34,448 nucleotides of DNA from positions 1-34,448 of the IMG/VR virus record IMGVR_UViG_3300042893_000696; one strand, 5' to 3'. Of this stretch, positions 13,032-33,630 are shown in pieces. Position 1 is the first letter of the stretch. Every line of letters starts with the position of its first letter. Made by a program: the position numbers and the translations under genes. Origin of the DNA: a virus. Below the pieces are notes generated by a model. It was not told the DNA's origin and ran no database searches. It was given only the letters and a program-made list of their open reading frames with translations.

Positions 13032-13208
13032 TTAAAATAAAATAACAATTATAGCCATCACTAGAACAGCTAGTAATGCGACAATTATACTATACGCAAT
13101 GGACTTTGTCAAGGTCCAACGTTCCTTACCTTCCATCTTTCTCCAGGCAGTAATGCCAAAGTGAATGATAACAGCAAGGATGGCAAATGCTAACCAAAGT
13201 CTAATCAT
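13032..13208 (-). CDS. Small two-helix membrane protein
   Basis: From ATG 13208 (AAAGGAAT upstream) this is a 58-residue protein with two hydrophobic helices, MIRLWLAFAILAVIIHFGI and a C-terminal SIAYSIIVALLAVLVMAIIV, joined by a charged loop with WRKMEGKERW. The longer reading from 13313 runs into the neighbouring gene and lacks a start signal. It starts 1 bp after the stop of the 13210 gene. A holin or membrane-regulator role is conceivable from topology only. A strong promoter lies inside its coding region. Confidence 0.7.
   Translation of the reverse strand: MIRLWLAFAILAVIIHFGITAWRKMEGKERWTLTKSIAYSIIVALLAVLVMAIIVILF
13084..13112 (-). promoter_or_regulatory. Consensus sigma70-like promoter inside the small membrane-protein gene
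   Basis: TTGACA (13107-13112), 17 bp, TATAAT (13084-13089) on the minus strand. It would drive the SPFH lipoprotein and clpP. Confidence 0.8.
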
Positions 13209-26201: not shown

Positions 26202-26655
26202 ACCAAATTTCCTTAAATCCTTCTTCTTCTGTTGGATCTTCCCAGCTAGCAATCATGCTGGCAATAACATGATCCGGAATCTCTTTGCCAGGGCGGCCCA
26301 TCAATCGTCGCATTAGTTCCGTATGCTCAGGTGTCTTAAACACCACGGCAATATGCTCATAGTCTGTTAACATGTTAAACTTGCGAGCACGACTTTTAAC
26401 GGTAGTGCTTGTTTGATCCCAAATGATGTCGCGATTCATTTCACGAGCCACAACAACTTCTTTTGCCATAAGGTCTACGGCAGTGGGCATAAAGTCTACA
26501 AACACTTCACTGTAGGTGCGTCCTACTTCCTTTGCGTAGATTTCAACCCATTTGTCTGTACTAATATGGGCACAGGTTAACGCCCAGTCTTGTTCAGCTA
26601 CCCAGGTAGATTTTCCGCTACCTGGGACTCCAATTAGTTGATAACACTTTGGCAT
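26194..26655 (-). CDS. P-loop kinase, polynucleotide-5'-kinase-like
   Basis: This 153-residue protein has the Walker A motif GVPGSGKS (9-16), matching T4 polynucleotide kinase (GCPGSGKSTWA), then a HISTDKW acidic strand. The Walker B-like IIWDQTSTTVKSRARKF resembles the PNK VIISDTN block, and LMRRLMGRPGKEIPDHVI resembles the lid region. It corresponds to the kinase domain alone, without a phosphatase domain. The next gene upstream encodes a metallophosphoesterase. A role in 5'-end phosphorylation of RNA or DNA is likely; nucleotide kinase is the alternative. Confidence 0.75.
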   Translation of the reverse strand: MPKCYQLIGVPGSGKSTWVAEQDWALTCAHISTDKWVEIYAKEVGRTYSEVFVDFMPTAVDLMAKEVVVAREMNRDIIWDQTSTTVKSRARKFNMLTDYEHIAVVFKTPEHTELMRRLMGRPGKEIPDHVIASMIASWEDPTEEEGFKEIWYV

Positions 26656-26663
26656 AATACTCC

Positions 26664-27266
26664 TTACATTGTTGGGCCGTTGCCGTTTTTAAAACCTACA
26701 CTGCCACCTTCGGCTTCGATACGAGCAATAACATCTTCGAACAAGATAGGTTCAAAGTCAGTTTGCTCCACGCAAACACAATGATAACGAACATCGTTCT
26801 CATCGCTGTATAAAACTTCGCCAGTTCTAGCATCAACACCGCGAGCCTTCTTCACACGGTTGGCGTGAGTGTGTCCGTGAATGTTAACTCCAAAACGACC
26901 CATGCTATCACTATGTAACGGGATATGGCTCAAGATCATTCCGTTCATAACATGATATGCTCGTAATTCACGGAAGTAAGTCCTATACTCGTCATCACGG
27001 AAGATGTCGTGGTTACCGCGGATTAAGACCTTGTCACCGTTTAAGCGACCTAATGTCTTTAATGCCTTACGGTTAATGACCGCATCACCTAAGTGATAAA
27101 CTTTATCAGTTGGCTTAACTTTGGCGTTCCATTTAGCAACCATGGCTTCGTCCATTTCCTCTGGACTGTCCCATGGCCTTAACTTGGTAACACCGTCGTT
27201 ACGTGTGAAGCGACATACACCCATGTGACCAAAGTGTGTGTCGCTTACTAAAAATACACTAGGCAT
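26664..27266 (-). CDS. Metallophosphoesterase, 200 aa
   Basis: This has the five metal motifs: D-x-H in VSDTHFGH, GD in YHLGDAVIN, GNHD in LIRGNHDIF, a His in ILSHIPLH, and GHTH in NIHGHTHAN. The length and SDTHFGH opening match the small phage/bacterial phosphoesterase family. It is 8 bp from the PNK-like kinase, an arrangement reminiscent of the kinase-phosphatase halves of bacterial Pnkp. RBS GGAGGGCAA precedes ATG 27266. End-healing of RNA is a reasonable but unproven role. Confidence 0.9.
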   Translation of the reverse strand: MPSVFLVSDTHFGHMGVCRFTRNDGVTKLRPWDSPEEMDEAMVAKWNAKVKPTDKVYHLGDAVINRKALKTLGRLNGDKVLIRGNHDIFRDDEYRTYFRELRAYHVMNGMILSHIPLHSDSMGRFGVNIHGHTHANRVKKARGVDARTGEVLYSDENDVRYHCVCVEQTDFEPILFEDVIARIEAEGGSVGFKNGNGPTM

Positions 27267-28596: not shown

Positions 28597-28823
28597 TACA
28601 CTCGTTCCTTTTTAACACGGCCGATGCGACTCGCCTTGTTCCAATCATAAACAACACCATCTGGGCATAGTCCGTTTTTAACGCTGTCAACACCAAACAT
28701 GCCCACAATTTCAAAATCTGGACCTGTGATAGAGACAAACTCATTCATTGCCTTGGCAGTGCTCATTGCTTCATCCAATGTTGTTACATCGAATGTTACT
28801 ACCGATCCTTTTACCTTATACAT
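28596..28823 (-). CDS. Small unknown protein, 75 aa
   Basis: Using ATG 28823 (MYKVKGSVVTFDVTTLDEAM) the protein has 75 residues and overlaps the GIY-YIG gene by 8 bp. The upstream in-frame ATG at 28868 would lie deep inside that gene. The fold looks like a small alpha/beta domain (VVTFDVTTLDEAMSTAKAMN) ending in a basic tail RIGRVKKERV. No motif. Likely co-expressed with the GIY-YIG protein. Confidence 0.65.
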   Translation of the reverse strand: MYKVKGSVVTFDVTTLDEAMSTAKAMNEFVSITGPDFEIVGMFGVDSVKNGLCPDGVVYDWNKASRIGRVKKERV

Positions 28824-29226
28824 TTTTTGTTCTATCTTCAAAATTTTCATCATTACATAACGGATCAAATATCAACATCATTGCGCCTTCCAAATATGTG
28901 CGATCAACTGCTTTTGAGCATTCAAAATATTCGATAGTCCATGATACAGGATCCCACCATTGTTCTTCTCGGGTCGCTTTCCAACCCTTACCGTGGCTAG
29001 TGCCTTCTTTCAGAATGGCATACGCCTTATTGTGGTGATGTTCAAAACGAGCACGGATGCCTGAACCACCACCGCCTTGTCCTACATAAATGCAAGTATC
29101 ACCTTGCCAAATGCTGTACAGTCCATTACTTTTTGGTAACGATTTAAACTCGTTAAAAGAATGGGTTTGGATAGCTGGGCTAATGCCGCAACGCTGAAAG
29201 TCGGGTTGTAGTTTTGCTAATTTCAT
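28816..29226 (-). CDS. GIY-YIG nuclease-domain protein
   Basis: Starting at ATG 29226 this is a 136-residue protein with the GIY-YIG elements: GLYSIW (about 35-40), CIYVGQG (45-51), Arg in GIRARFEHHH, and Glu in YLEGAMMLIFDPLCND. Such proteins are homing or repair nucleases. The perfect TTGACA-17-TATAAT promoter ends 6 bp before this ATG, so the longer frame from 29301 would be upstream of transcription and the mRNA would be leaderless. It may be a free-standing homing endonuclease or a phage recombination nuclease. Confidence 0.78.
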   Translation of the reverse strand: MKLAKLQPDFQRCGISPAIQTHSFNEFKSLPKSNGLYSIWQGDTCIYVGQGGGGSGIRARFEHHHNKAYAILKEGTSHGKGWKATREEQWWDPVSWTIEYFECSKAVDRTYLEGAMMLIFDPLCNDENFEDRTKNV

Positions 29227-29232
29227 ATCATT

Positions 29233-29261
29233 ATTATAACAGCATCTGACTATCTTGTCAA
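29233..29261 (-). promoter_or_regulatory. Perfect consensus sigma70 promoter
   Basis: TTGACA (29256-29261), 17 bp, extended -10 TGT-TATAAT (29233-29238) on the minus strand. The first transcribed base would fall on or within 1-2 nt of the ATG at 29226. Confidence 0.88.
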
Positions 29262-29400
29262 TAGCCAAATGTGTTGTATATTTACAACATTTATGACCCA
29301 TTTAAATGCCCTACAAGCGTCGATAACGGTTCTAAGCAGGTCAACATTGCCCTAGCTGTTTTAAACTCAGTGTAGGGCTGTATTTTGGGTAACAACAGCC

Positions 29401-29444: not shown

Positions 29445-30545
29445 TTAAAAAGCATCGTAGTAGTGGAAGTTCTTTTCTTTCACTTTGGTAAGTGTAAGAG
29501 CATGACCATCCTTGTTCATGAAGATAAACATGCCACTTTGTGGATCAATCTTTTGGATTTCAGCTGGCGTAAAACTAGCTTCTTCCCAGTTCCAATCTGC
29601 ATCTTCCTTGTCGTCGTCTTTGTCAGTCCAGGGTAGGCCTGCGTTAGACACTTTGAACGACAAGTGGATCTTGCTTTGGAGTGGATTACCTTTCCATTCG
29701 CGAGACTCCAGATGCTTTTGTTCAACAGGAATACCTTTGAAGCTCAGTTGAGTTGAATACTTGTTGCCGTCATCAAATTCTGGTTTGGCATTCAACATCT
29801 TCAATGCTTCTTCAGGAGATTCATTGTAGCGATTCATTTCTTCAACTAATGCTTTCAGCATGTCAAAGTTGAACTGGTTAAACAACATGGCAATTGAGCA
29901 AATCTTAGCAATGTGTTCCTTGGCATTCAAGTTGTCCTCACAGTACTCGATGATAAAGTCCTGTGTCAAGCCTGTGTAGTCCAGCATGTAGTAGATACGA
30001 CCTGGACGATTACGCATGTGGCTATCCACACGCCACTTGTCGTTACAGGTAATCACAAACATTTTCTTGCTGGGGAATACACCGTCCAACAAAGTCAGCA
30101 TGGCTTCTTGCTCTTGTGCGTCGTAGACTTTTTCAAACTCGTCAAACAACACAACACATGGTTGCTCGATAGCCTGAATCAAGGCATTGAACTTATCACC
30201 GGTCCACGCATTGTTAATAACAATGGTAGGATGGCCTTGATTGGCTGCATGAATTGACAAGGCTTTTGCCAGCAAACTTTTGCCGCTACCTTTCTCACCA
30301 GTAAGCATTACGCCAGTGCTGGCACTACGATCCATGAATGTATTAAAAATACGATTTGTATTTTTGTCTAAGTCGCCGTACCGCTTGCCTTTGATCTCAA
30401 ACGAATCAATTTGTTCAAGATACAACTCACCACTCATTGGATTTTCTTTAATGGTAAAATTAGCCGCTGGTAGTGCCTCGTGTAGGTCCATGGCTTCTTT
30501 TGATGTTACACGAAACGAGATTCCTGATTTTAAAAAATATGACAT
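29445..30545 (-). CDS. AAA+ ATPase beside the Ro-like vWA protein
   Basis: This 366-residue protein has Walker A GEKGSGKS (83-90), Walker B VVLFDEFE (131-138), sensor-1 VITCND (164-169) and a probable Arg finger in RNRPGRIYY (178-185). An N-terminal beta-rich domain and a C-terminal domain with several Trp/Asp-rich strands (WTDKDDDKEDADWNWEEA) frame the ATPase. AAA+ and vWA proteins often work as a pair (MoxR-vWA logic), and the next gene upstream is a vWA protein. It has its own extended -10 promoter and terminator. Confidence 0.88.
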   Translation of the reverse strand: MSYFLKSGISFRVTSKEAMDLHEALPAANFTIKENPMSGELYLEQIDSFEIKGKRYGDLDKNTNRIFNTFMDRSASTGVMLTGEKGSGKSLLAKALSIHAANQGHPTIVINNAWTGDKFNALIQAIEQPCVVLFDEFEKVYDAQEQEAMLTLLDGVFPSKKMFVITCNDKWRVDSHMRNRPGRIYYMLDYTGLTQDFIIEYCEDNLNAKEHIAKICSIAMLFNQFNFDMLKALVEEMNRYNESPEEALKMLNAKPEFDDGNKYSTQLSFKGIPVEQKHLESREWKGNPLQSKIHLSFKVSNAGLPWTDKDDDKEDADWNWEEASFTPAEIQKIDPQSGMFIFMNKDGHALTLTKVKEKNFHYYDAF

Positions 30546-30678: not shown

Positions 30679-32094
30679 TTACAGCTTGTAACGATCACTC
30701 ATTACAGTCTTAAGCATGATGCCTTCTGGAGTGAACTGATCCAAGTCAGCGGCTAGCAAGCTAGTCATTATACTTGGGCTGAATCCACTTACCAATGCGG
30801 CACCACTCTTGTCAGCCTTAACAGGCACGTTGTCTGAACTGTTTAGGTTCCAGAAAACAACTTGTGGCATGCTGTAGCCTGCGGCTTCGAACTTGCGTTC
30901 GATCATTTCCATTGCGCTGTCGTCGTGCTTGGCGCATTGGTCAAACTGCATGTCACTCAAGATCAGCAACATGGCTGGCATGTCGCTGGCTGGTACTGAA
31001 CCCTTAACCGCTACGTCTAGAATCTTGTTCATAGCCGCGTTTAGGTTAGTGCTCATGTCCCAATCACTCTTGCTCATTTGAGCAACCTTGTCAACAATGT
31101 TACCCTTTAGAGTAACAAGTTCTGGCTTGCTAGAGAAAGTCAAGAAAGTGTCCTTGAACACACCCTTGTTCTTGTCTGCTAGGTACAGGCCCAAGCTGAT
31201 TGAAACATCCATACAAGTCACATTAGTGTTCTTTCCTGCTGGGCAAGACATAGAACCGCTAACGTCTACGATTGGCATGATGCTGGCATCTCCCACATAG
31301 TTTGGCAAAGCATCCCACTGTGCCACGATGTGGTCAGTGGCTGTCTTGTCCAAAATTGCACGGTTGTAGCTTCCGATAACACCCTTCAACACGTCATGTG
31401 GGAAGATTGCGCTGGCGTTAACCTTGACAGTCTTGTCACCACTTACCAACTTGGCCACATACTCAGCGAATGCTGGTGTGTGACGGCTGAATGCCTTCTT
31501 GTAGTTGCGTGAAGCAACACTTGGCACGTGACTGAAGTTGATGTTGTCCCAGTCGTTGGCACACATTTGTGTTTCCACAACTGTGGTCATTCCCACTAAA
31601 CTCTTACGATACTGCTTTGGAGTCATTCCAAAGAATGCTCGTACTTCAGCCGCAATCTTGCCCTTACGAGGAGTCCACTTTGCGGCCAGACCGTTACGGG
31701 CACGTAGGGCATCGCCCAACATGGTATAAGCGGCTGACTTCAAGTCAGGGTTAGTGAAGACAAAGATGTCATCCCAACGGCCAACTTCAGGGATCTTGCG
31801 TAGCAAAGCCAAAGCGGCGTCTGGGTCACGCTTTTCTAGATGTACTAGAATGTCGCGGAACAATTGACGTTCACCTGCACCACCACGGACATCACGTGCC
31901 CATTGTGCGATGCGTAGTGCTACGTCACTGTTTTCTACATAAGCGGCAGTGAAGTCGCCTACAATGTTCTTACCACGGCTTGCGCCGATCTTGTAGAACA
32001 GGTCCACAGTGGCCTTGGCTGTGCTCTTACGTGCCTTCATGCCATTGGCAGTACGGGCTTCTTGGTTTGCTATTGCTGTTACAAATGCGTTCAT
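30679..32094 (-). CDS. Ro60/TROVE-like vWA protein (DUF2828 type)
   Basis: This 471-residue protein has an N-terminal helical repeat domain (VALRIAQWARDVRGGAGERQ, then LLRKIPEVGRWDDIF) of the TROVE/DUF2828 kind. It continues with VVETQMCANDWDNINFSHVP and a C-terminal von Willebrand A domain. The MIDAS loop DVSGSMS is at 277-283, a conserved LILSDMQFDQ follows and VSGFSPSIM is near the end. Ro60/Rsr proteins form a HEAT ring that binds Y RNAs and misfolded RNA ends. DUF2828 proteins are a related, uncharacterised group known in T4-like phages. Its 5' leader contains the structured RNA at 32101-32621. GTGAGG is the ribosome site. Confidence 0.85.
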   Translation of the reverse strand: MNAFVTAIANQEARTANGMKARKSTAKATVDLFYKIGASRGKNIVGDFTAAYVENSDVALRIAQWARDVRGGAGERQLFRDILVHLEKRDPDAALALLRKIPEVGRWDDIFVFTNPDLKSAAYTMLGDALRARNGLAAKWTPRKGKIAAEVRAFFGMTPKQYRKSLVGMTTVVETQMCANDWDNINFSHVPSVASRNYKKAFSRHTPAFAEYVAKLVSGDKTVKVNASAIFPHDVLKGVIGSYNRAILDKTATDHIVAQWDALPNYVGDASIMPIVDVSGSMSCPAGKNTNVTCMDVSISLGLYLADKNKGVFKDTFLTFSSKPELVTLKGNIVDKVAQMSKSDWDMSTNLNAAMNKILDVAVKGSVPASDMPAMLLILSDMQFDQCAKHDDSAMEMIERKFEAAGYSMPQVVFWNLNSSDNVPVKADKSGAALVSGFSPSIMTSLLAADLDQFTPEGIMLKTVMSDRYKL

Positions 32095-32108
32095 TTTATT
32101 ACCTCACA

Positions 32109-32167
32109 GAATGTGTTTTTTTTCGATATGCGTGAAAATTTAAAGTTGCTGTTAACATTCTAAAACT
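32109..32167 (-). repeat. RNA module copy A3 (closing helix GAATGT/ACATTC)
   Basis: GAATGT (32155-32160), 2 nt, ACAGCAA, an inner loop of about 40 nt, then ACATTC (32109-32114) and TGTGAGG, which contains the ribosome site of the Ro-like gene. An alternative hairpin CTGTTAA / TTAACAG competes with the helix. Confidence 0.7.
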
Positions 32168-32169
32168 TT

Positions 32170-32417
32170 AACAGGATGATCGTGCCAATTTGTTTAGTAT
32201 TCTGGTCTGACCAATTACGGCACTCAGACCCTATCAACATTCATGTTGACTATTCACACTCGGCTTTCTGTAGTGAACACATAGTATGTCTTTCCATACT
32301 GTCGTCTATTCCATCTGCGTACATGGTATTTCACATGTATAAACTTTTCAGTCCACCCTTACGGGGCACATTCTATAGCATTAAGCGTTAGTTTAAATTG
32401 CTGTAGTCATCCAAATA
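32170..32417 (-). repeat. RNA module copy A2 (closing helix GGATGA/TCATCC)
   Basis: GGATGA (32407-32412), 2 nt, ACAGCAA, about 227 nt of hairpins, then TCATCC (32174-32179) and TGTTA. Confidence 0.7.
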
Positions 32418-32596
32418 TAACAGGATCGTTTTCTACTTTTTGTTTTTATCGAGGAGACTTATCGAAACTCCTCTATCTTCACTGTCCTTGCTTGCGCATT
32501 GTCTTTAACCTTCAAAGCCCCGAAAGGCTCCAGCTAATAACAGGGTAAGTGAAGCAATCCATAGTAATATGTAGTTGCTGTACCGATCCTAAAACT
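32418..32596 (-). repeat. RNA module copy A1 (closing helix GGATCG/CGATCC)
   Basis: AGTTTTAGGATCG (helix 32584-32589), 2 nt, ACAGCAA, about 155 nt, then CGATCC (32423-32428) and TGTTA. Strongest match to copy B. Confidence 0.75.
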
Positions 32597-32627
32597 GTCC
32601 ACAAGCATTATTGCTTGCTATGTGACT

Positions 32628-32656
32628 ATTATAACAGTATTGCGCTGTCTTGTCAC
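32628..32656 (-). promoter_or_regulatory. Sigma70-like promoter for the structured RNA and Ro-like gene
   Basis: GTGACA (32651-32656), 17 bp, extended -10 TGT-TATAAT (32628-32633) on the minus strand. Predicted start near 32621, immediately before the first RNA hairpin. Confidence 0.82.
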
Positions 32657-32687
32657 TACATTTTGGCTAAACTGCTAAAATATAAAT

Positions 32688-32764
32688 TGGTCGGAGTACA
32701 AGGATTCGAACCTTGGACCCCCTGGTCCCAAACCAGGTGCGCTACCAGACTGCGCTACACTCCG
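32688..32764 (-). tRNA. tRNA-Pro (anticodon TGG)
   Basis: Full cloverleaf on the minus strand with a CGGAGTG/TACTCCG acceptor, anticodon loop TTTGGGA, GGTTCGAATCC T-arm and encoded CCA. Confidence 0.95.
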
Positions 32765-32766
32765 AA

Positions 32767-32919
32767 TTAACTTGCTACAATATGCGGTATATATGGAACT
32801 GCTCTTGGACCACCATACAGTTGCTCGAAAAGTTTTTTAGCCTCTTGCGGTGTATCCGCATAGATACGTTTCTTTTCTTCACCTTGAGGTGTTCTTACAG
32901 TTGCTTCATACATTGGCAT
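32767..32919 (-). CDS. Small protein between tRNAs, 50 aa
   Basis: The frame from ATG 32919 reads MPMYEATVRTPQGEEKKRIY, then ADTPQEAKKLFEQLYGGPRA and ends VPYIPHIVAS. It has a clear beta-hairpin/helix pattern (EATVRTPQG ... DTPQEAKKLFEQLYG) as in small phage proteins inserted among tRNA genes. AAGGATAC lies upstream. The second ATG (32913) is a possible start. Function unknown. Confidence 0.75.
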   Translation of the reverse strand: MPMYEATVRTPQGEEKKRIYADTPQEAKKLFEQLYGGPRAVPYIPHIVAS

Positions 32920-32933
32920 ATTGTATCCTTAAA

Positions 32934-33009
32934 TGGTACCTGGTGTCAGACTCGAACTGACATCGTTCTCCGTGTAAAGGAGATGCATAACCTCTCTGCG
33001 CAACCAGGC
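32934..33009 (-). tRNA. tRNA-Val (anticodon TAC)
   Basis: Minus-strand cloverleaf: GCCTGGT/ACCAGGT acceptor (one G-T pair), loop TTTACAC, T-loop TTCGAGT, encoded CCA. Confidence 0.93.
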
Positions 33010-33018
33010 ATTAAATTT

Positions 33019-33092
33019 TGGAGCGGGATGGGAGAATCGAACTCCCGACATTAGATTGGAAATCTAAGGTAATGCCATTTTACGAATCCCGC
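33019..33092 (-). tRNA. tRNA-Gly (anticodon TCC)
   Basis: Minus-strand cloverleaf: GCGGGAT acceptor, anticodon stem TTAGA/TCTAA with loop TTTCCAA, T-arm GGGAGTTCGATTCTCCC, encoded CCA. Its 5' base is adjacent to a 20-bp helix of the upstream ncRNA. Confidence 0.94.
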
Positions 33093-33555
33093 ACACTTTA
33101 TAGGTGCTCTCTGTGGCGCTTGAATCCACGGCAGCCCTTCTCTTCATGGCCGGTCCTTGCTTTGGTCGACGTTGGCAAGTTTCTCGGTGTTCCATTGTAG
33201 CTACTCAGAAAGCACGTATAAAGTGTCCGGCTACTCACACCACATGAGCCCCGGACTGAGCAGTTACTCTGTCCATAACATTTTCTTCTTCTGGAAAGGC
33301 TGTTAATCCTCACCCTAGGCAGTTTCCAGTATCCCTTAAATGGGGACTGTGAGGTCAGGTCCTAGTGTACCCTCTGGTCTATCGTTACAGAGACGCTATT
33401 TCGTTACGTAGAAATAGTAAGACGGGTTTTTAACAGGATAGGCTTTGCCTTATTTTTTATTTAAAACTTGACAAAGCGAACAAGTTCGTCCGGGTCGCCC
33501 CAGACCTTTGATACGGTTATTCACCGTTAGTGGTTTGCTGTCTCTATCCTAAAAC
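33093..33555 (-). ncRNA. 463-nt structured noncoding RNA between tRNA-Thr and tRNA-Gly
   Basis: No plausible gene is present. The 463 nt fold into many perfect helices: a GNRA hairpin GTCTGGG-GCGA-CCCGGAC (33488-33505), ACGGT-GAATA-ACCGT (33513-33527), AACTTG/CAAGTT (33465-33486), CTATTTC/GAAATAG (33396-33417), GGAC-a-GAG/CTC-a-GTCC (33253-33274) and GTCCGG/CCGGAC (33225-33256). A 21-nt helix with one mismatch (33093-33113 with 33206-33226) directly abuts tRNA-Gly. It begins with module copy B right after the CCA of tRNA-Thr. It would be cut out by tRNA-end processing. Large tRNA-linked phage RNAs (GOLLD, ROOL) are known; I cannot match it to them from memory. Confidence 0.75.
33431..33554 (-). 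repeat. RNA module copy B (closing helix GGATAG/CTATCC)
   Basis: GTTTTAGGATAG (helix 33544-33549) starts at the base after the CCA of tRNA-Thr, then 2 nt and ACAGCAA. After about 102 nt containing three hairpins comes CTATCC (33436-33441) and TGTTA. Confidence 0.75.
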
Positions 33556-33630
33556 TGGTGCCCAATGTCTGATTCGAACAGACGACCTACCGCTTACAAG
33601 GCGGTTGCTCTACCCCTGAGCCAATCGGGC
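33556..33630 (-). tRNA. tRNA-Thr (anticodon TGT)
   Basis: Minus-strand cloverleaf: GCCCGAT/ATTGGGC acceptor, loop CTTGTAA, T-loop TTCGAAT, encoded CCA. Confidence 0.95.

Follow-up and report, generated by a model that had tools for sequence, protein, structure and literature searches.

An RNA module with a terminal helix and an ACAGCAA anchor accompanies Ro-like genes of phages and of cellular genomes and is probably a Y-RNA-like element

Ro proteins are widespread, and few of their RNA partners in bacteria and phages are known. Two described RNA classes come closest to the RNA reported here. One is YrlA (Rfam RF02553), which shares with it a place beside a Ro-family gene and a helix joining the RNA ends; the other is the Class I RNA of Dictyostelium (RF01414). 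Class I RNA is described as about 60 nt long, with a 6-bp stem joining its ends, an invariant 5' G, CUGU at the 3' end and an 11-nt motif in which T3, C6, C9, A10 and A11 are nearly constant; it was called unique to dictyostelids, the genomes of amoebae, plants and opisthokonts and that of Myxococcus having been examined, and no mention of TROVE or Ro60 was found in that paper (PMC7919456). In phages, Y RNAs were reported earlier from mycobacteriophages (Chen et al. 2014, cited in PMC12282133). Purified particles of Listeria phage CKA15 contained its Ro-like protein, and upstream noncoding RNAs of high abundance were guessed to be Y RNAs (PMC12282133). The Ro-like protein of mycobacteriophage LeBron is toxic when overexpressed (PMC13148394).

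The window analysed in this study is a whole stretch of viral DNA, 34,448 nt long (IMG/VR record IMGVR_UViG_3300042893_000696). Four RNA modules lie on its minus strand, and the helices, coordinates, 2-nt gap and ACAGCAA that the original prediction assigned to them are present letter for letter. Module A (33436-33549) is closed by GGATAG (33544-33549) and CTATCC (33436-33441), module B (32423-32589) by GGATCG (32584-32589) and CGATCC (32423-32428), module C (32174-32412) by GGATGA (32407-32412) and TCATCC (32174-32179), and module D (32109-32160) by GAATGT (32155-32160) and ACATTC (32109-32114). Their inner parts, counted between ACAGCAA and the 3' helix strand, are 93, 146, 218 and 31 nt long, and the tail is TGTTA in A, B and C and TGTGA in D; the 2-nt gap and ACAGCAA, read in the letters of the window, are constant in all four. 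AGTTTTA precedes the helix in three copies, as had been noticed, copy C being the exception with TATATTT at that place. The transcript would run from tRNA-Thr (33556-33630, minus strand) through module A, about 340 nt, tRNA-Gly, tRNA-Val and tRNA-Pro (32688-32764, minus strand, the nearest tRNA upstream of the leader modules) to modules B, C and D in tandem and then the Ro-like gene (30679-32094, minus strand, 471 aa). Module A had been thought to begin at the base after the CCA of tRNA-Thr; it does adjoin this tRNA, but the A of its AGTTTTA is itself the last CCA base, and 6 nt (GTTTTA) separate tRNA and helix. A presumed ribosome-binding site, GAGG (32102-32105, minus strand), overlaps the TGTGA tail of module D, whose helix ends 14 nt before the Ro ATG.

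The motif pattern has four matches on the reverse strand of the window and one on the forward strand, against 0 and 0 for the reversed control pattern. A partner helix is absent within 450 nt of the fifth GRATNNNNACAGCAA (13163, plus strand), and this lone GAATGATAACAGCAA at 13163-13177 is probably due to chance. Searched with R1, a covariance model of the short module, module A scored 33.6 bits (E 3.4e-6), module B 22.4 bits with its 5' part alone matched, and module C, whose inner part is too long for R1, 9.8 bits; module D scored 61.3 bits, being itself among the R1 rows. At gathering score, no Rfam family except tRNA matched the window, and with E values up to 10 admitted only tRNAs stood above the cut-off, the next best match being Dictyostelium Class I RNA (E 0.93). 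The 343 nt between module A and tRNA-Gly (33093-33435, minus strand) hold no convincing gene; Rfam recorded only tRNA at the edges there, and the segment folds no better than its shuffles (z -1.17). Directly downstream of the Ro-like gene lies an AAA ATPase gene (phrog_2376; 29445-30545, minus strand), and AAA-vWA gene pairs are known from jumbo phages. A 161-aa frame (28816-29301, minus strand) has no Pfam or PHROG match; its letters YIWQG..YVGQG..R suggest a possible GIY-YIG nuclease.

The protein beside these modules carries Pfam domains DUF2828 and DUF7788 and matches phrog_850, annotated as an RNA-binding protein, at E 3e-142. An AlphaFold2 model built from 27 sequences reached a mean pLDDT of 86. 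Foldseek placed Ro proteins at all of ranks 1 to 7 for this model, and alignment to Ro60 with bound RNA (1yvp) by VIA-align gave Z 20.1 over 412 residues, against 9.8 for the first row that is not Ro. The DUF2828/DUF7788 protein is therefore predicted to have the HEAT-ring plus vWA fold of Ro60. At E<=0.001 the TROVE Pfam model matched none of the 27 sequences, while DUF7788 and DUF2828 matched 27 of 27, VWA_2 two and Mlp one. A second phage protein, the Ro60/TROVE protein, has the Ro fold too; its structures 9l5y, from Thermus phage phiLo and named as a phage Ro60, and 9kop align to the window model with Z 14.9 and 16.2, and the sequence match to the window protein is weak (46 residues, E 0.07). 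No paper on the phiLo Ro60 was found in the CC-licensed literature, and we know of no RNA partners for it. Relatives of the window protein are present in 677 of 50,697 phage records, and the DUF2828/DUF7788 family also occurs in eukaryotes.

The pattern exceeds chance by far, and the anchor recurs widely. The pattern TTTTAGGATNNNNACAGCAA, which leaves the last two helix bases free, was found in at least 119 IMG/VR stretches, many of them close relatives whose counts are not independent events, and the same pattern reversed in 9. These loci gave 122 unique sites after 19 duplicates were dropped; the 3' anchor ATCCTGT followed within 300 nt in 114 and was absent in 8. The free helix bases were complementary at 108 of the 114 anchored sites, where 20.3 were expected from composition. 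The paired changes first noticed among four copies are thus borne out in a test that is unbiased, pairing having been no selection criterion. An alignment of short modules, comprising 56 of the 57 non-redundant short modules (L140 omitted) and module D, shows two-sided changes in all 6 helix pairs; its rows had been chosen for an exact helix, so its complete pairing is biased and shows the variety of pairs only, and for this reason the 108 of 114 sites serve as the covariation test. Of 27 inner pairs predicted for 17 module B relatives, 13 show two-sided changes, several rows being broken in some of the pairs. These relatives (L122/L017-type loci, alignment columns 58-166) have a conserved inner fold of their own with invariant TGGAG ... 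TGAAGG, which is neither tRNA-like nor matched in Rfam. A pseudoknot between ACAG and the 3' CUGU was considered from the letters and set aside; both are nearly constant, so covariation offers no test of it. No description of the anchor was found in the CC-licensed literature, a scope outside which two reviews by Sim and Wolin and Chen 2014 lie.

The link between the modules and the Ro-like gene holds far beyond the four copies from which it was proposed. Twenty-three named phages of varied hosts that encode the Ro-like protein were chosen before modules were looked for, and R1 matched all 23 genomes at E<=0.1, 22 of them at E<=0.01; this includes 15 of 15 that had given R1 no sequence. Only 1 of 17 Ro-less records matched, weakly. 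Both phrog_850 and R1 are without a match in T4, phiKZ, SPO1 and phage K. In 14 control contigs, the sole Ro-encoding one has five R1 matches and the other 13 give a single weak one (E 0.07). Seen from the motif instead, the Ro-like protein is encoded on 21 of 25 pattern-bearing contigs of at least 80 kb; 20 of these match it at E 2e-110 or lower, and in the last the gene is truncated where the contig ends. Among control contigs of that size the figure is 1 of 11, a weak partial match in a second one not being counted (Fisher p 4e-5). The remaining 4 of the 25 have no Ro-like gene and may be fragments. At E<=0.001, phrog_850 also matches 6 of 14 named control genomes.

The association extends to cellular genomes. 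Searching GTDB contigs with an alignment of 24 Ro-like proteins brought up relatives at 79 places, among others in Clostridia, Chloroflexi, spirochaetes, Mycolicibacterium and a Methanobrevibacter; a few of these places are near-duplicates, and chromosome, prophage and stray phage contig are not told apart in this count. These loci (L460-L538) lie on many bacterial and a few archaeal contigs, complete chromosomes (L483, L509) included. R1 gave 70 matches at E<=1 near these genes, and 70 of 70 lie on the Ro strand; 40 of the 79 loci have a match at E<0.01 and 39 have none. A second count started from every ACAGCAA and asked for an unbroken 6-bp helix at the 2-nt spacing with [TA]G next to it; 75 of 201 occurrences on the Ro strand qualified, against 0 of 41 on the opposite strand. 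The same count gave 4 of 189 in 120 control loci, and in the 23 named-phage loci 32 of 51 on the Ro strand and 0 of 3 on the other. The exact motif pattern has 0 matches in GTDB, the cellular copies carrying other helix letters.

The modules also keep to certain places. In 63 of 68 distinct Ro leaders, drawn from 80 related IMG/VR loci, about 12-28 nt lie between the end of a module's 3' helix and the Ro start codon, against 9 of 1071 random positions in the same loci. A stricter motif had at first given 43 of 68 (null 10 of 1117); it was widened, which gave 63, after the misses had been inspected, and in five loci the start codon was placed 9 nt upstream of the protein match, so that distances may be a few nucleotides off. 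Four of the five leaders still missed look by eye like 5-bp variants. The helices of leader modules range from GAATGT to GGTTAA and GTTTAT, and in some loci (L440, L447, L453) the leader module is tRNA-like. Among the 23 named phages, coordinates place the end of a module no more than 60 nt from the Ro start in seven (A511, PC14, PhiImVa-1, RHph_I1_18, DLP6, FNU3, VRE9_2), and inspection by eye adds two (KVP40, BUCT-ZZ01). Elsewhere modules follow Ro directly, as in S-CoN_Ph2 (three), AvadaKedavra and Snenia, or lie among tRNAs downstream of it, as in FelixO1 and KP13-26. Snenia (L381, 60-340) and AvadaKedavra (L380, 60-320) carry a short, a tRNA-like and a short module in a row right after Ro, with AG rather than UG tails and then a terminator-like hairpin. 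CKA15 has three modules in the gap before its Ro gene. The most abundant phage RNA region in the published infection transcriptome of this phage, CKA15 26236-26727 (L365, 2526-3017), is noncoding. Modules were considered as the source of this RNA and rejected: the region lacks ACAGCA, and R1 scores no higher than 8 bits in the corresponding stretch of A511.

From these observations we consider it probable that small noncoding RNAs serve the adjacent Ro-like protein and that the module, with its Y-RNA-like anchor, is the element by which they are recognised. Other accounts of the same evidence have to be weighed against this. The tight spacing to tRNA genes could mean that the modules help to process or stabilise tRNA-operon transcripts, to which the Ro-like gene is linked just by its position in or near tRNA operons: 75 of 328 modules follow a tRNA within 15 nt (57 of these at 6-7 nt) and 69 of 328 lie at most 15 nt before one (58 at 10-12 nt). 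The majority of modules, however, do not adjoin a tRNA; leaders without adjacent tRNAs hold modules at a fixed distance from the Ro start, the Ro-encoding S-CoN_Ph2 has its three modules right after Ro, and T4, a tRNA-carrying phage, is without modules. We regard this explanation as unlikely. It is no more persuasive to see in the modules a leader that acts purely in cis on the Ro gene, be it a riboswitch, a thermosensor or the binding site of another protein, and whose scattered copies are relics or controls of other transcripts. The modules in 63 of the 68 Ro leaders would suit such a device, yet many copies are found away from leaders, either behind Ro or amid tRNAs, and the tRNA-like domains inside modules suit a trans-acting RNA. 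Ro, the one companion compared, is moreover the only known companion of the modules throughout, and the odds we would give to a leader of this kind are small.

A repeat acting at the DNA level, either a mobile element with inverted ends or a recombination site, might also produce repeated copies with inverted ends beside tRNA genes. The strand bias speaks against it, with 70 of 70 R1 matches on the Ro strand and ACAGCAA 201 times on that strand against 41 on the other. So does the combination of a motif conserved on one strand with a helix that changes pairwise, even between copies within Snenia, and we find a DNA repeat very hard to credit.

The reading of the modules as RNA partners of the Ro-like protein can be worked out as follows. 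Sequence comparison establishes that the anchor exists and covaries, that it occurs with the Ro gene and on which strand, and that it takes fixed positions in Ro leaders and in tRNA arrays. The anchor would consist of the 6-bp helix joining the RNA ends, two free bases, ACAGCAA and the 3' UG(U), and the Ro-like protein most likely binds it, as co-occurrence, strand and position suggest. Several points speak against this reading: 39 of the 79 GTDB loci give no R1 match at E<0.01, 4 of the 25 long contigs show no Ro-like gene, the window copies lack the tRNA-like domain and, to our knowledge, the RNA-binding motif of the Ro60 family is a different one. The processing of tRNA 5' and 3' ends would free modules from tRNA-operon transcripts as small RNAs, and the freed modules, of which some include a mimic of tRNA, could then gate Ro or tether it in the manner of Y RNAs elsewhere. 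Where a module covers the ribosome-binding site, surplus Ro protein may halt its own translation; such autoregulation would not be general, since a module near the Ro start was seen in no more than 7 named phages out of 23, or 9 if those judged by eye are added. With a short, searchable anchor, autoregulation gains a testable model, the RNAs held by a given Ro would become a lookup, and many phages would appear to spend several noncoding RNAs on a Ro particle, often within tRNA arrays.

How far is this module an RNA without named kin, as was first proposed? In the window only tRNA reaches an Rfam gathering score. The layout itself, however, is that of Class I RNA (RF01414; PMC7919456), and many longer relatives, though not the window copies, enclose the permuted tRNA-like domain of YrlA (RF02553). 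The window copies and the short modules have in common with Class I RNA a 6-bp end stem with a 5' G, ACAGCAA (in Class I RNA part of the 11-nt motif) after the 5' strand and CUGU after the 3' strand, some module relatives having AG or CG tails instead. The length of about 60 nt is matched by module D and by the 144 short ones among 319 unique modules (inner part <=45 nt), whereas A, B and C are longer. The gap before ACAGCAA is 2 nt in the modules and 3 nt in Class I RNA by the alignments, and the modules are of viral, bacterial or archaeal origin instead of dictyostelid. Module D scored 20.5 bits against RF01414, below the cut-off; none of 65 records reached the gathering score of 41.5 bits, the best being 34.5. 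At E<=0.1, RF01414 found matches in 35 of 48 genomes with Ro or modules, the best at 1.4e-5, and in 1 of 17 Ro-less records (Fisher p 1e-6), and also in 4 of 14 large named control genomes; the one Ro-less match, in T4, sits in an open frame by our reading and was taken as chance. In the named phages, where coincidence with modules was checked, all 21 matches, in 14 of 23 genomes, fall on an R1 match (19) or on another detected module (2). The modules were not filed as Class I RNA because none scored above the cut-off and the gap is 2 nt instead of 3. A shared kind of recognising protein, or kinship, would explain the likeness. As a tentative proposal, which we hold possible and short of probable, one ancient RNA family, recognisable by ACAGCAA, a 3' UG(U) and a 6-bp helix that joins its ends, might partner DUF2828/DUF7788 Ro-like proteins across phages, bacteria, archaea and eukaryotes; Class I RNAs would then be its eukaryotic branch, with an unrecognised Ro-like protein as their core partner. 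If the match to Dictyostelium reflects kinship or common recognition, it proposes both a partner and a lineage for an abundant class of developmental RNA.

The comparison with YrlA leads further into the modules. A T-arm was sought in 319 unique modules, with 4 of 1650 shuffles giving one, and its presence depends on inner length: 0 of 144 modules with <=45 nt, 16 of 23 with 46-80 nt, 34 of 51 with 81-115 nt, and 1 of 49 and 0 of 52 in the longer classes. In 26 of the 34 T-arm modules at 81-115 nt the D-arm comes after the T-arm. This order of T-arm, stem and D-arm, found in many modules of 81-115 nt, is that of the permuted tRNA-like domain of YrlA. RF02553 scored 40.1 and 32.5 bits on two KP13-26 modules, and all of the 12 best RF02553 matches in 48 genomes are, by script, enclosed by a module, against 11 of 338 on control strands. 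The gathering score of 69 bits was reached in none of the 48 Ro or module genomes (best 49.9 bits), and the window copies gave no RF02553 match at E<=10, none of the four being tRNA-like. Whole-genome matches at E<=0.01 occur in 37 of the 48 genomes, and this count is set aside as evidence because 9 of 14 named control genomes match too; neighbouring tRNA genes may mimic the permuted domain. The modules differ from YrlA in that the end stems of its model fall off the module helix and ACAGCAA in the alignment seen, and in that short and very long modules, those of the window included, are without the tRNA-like domain; the association with a Ro-family gene, a YrlA trait, was found for the modules as well. 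In sum, the modules apparently form a large, undescribed group that occurs in phages, bacteria and archaea beside a Ro60-like protein. A new branch of Ro-associated, Y-like RNA that has an anchor of its own describes them better than an RNA that lacks known relatives.
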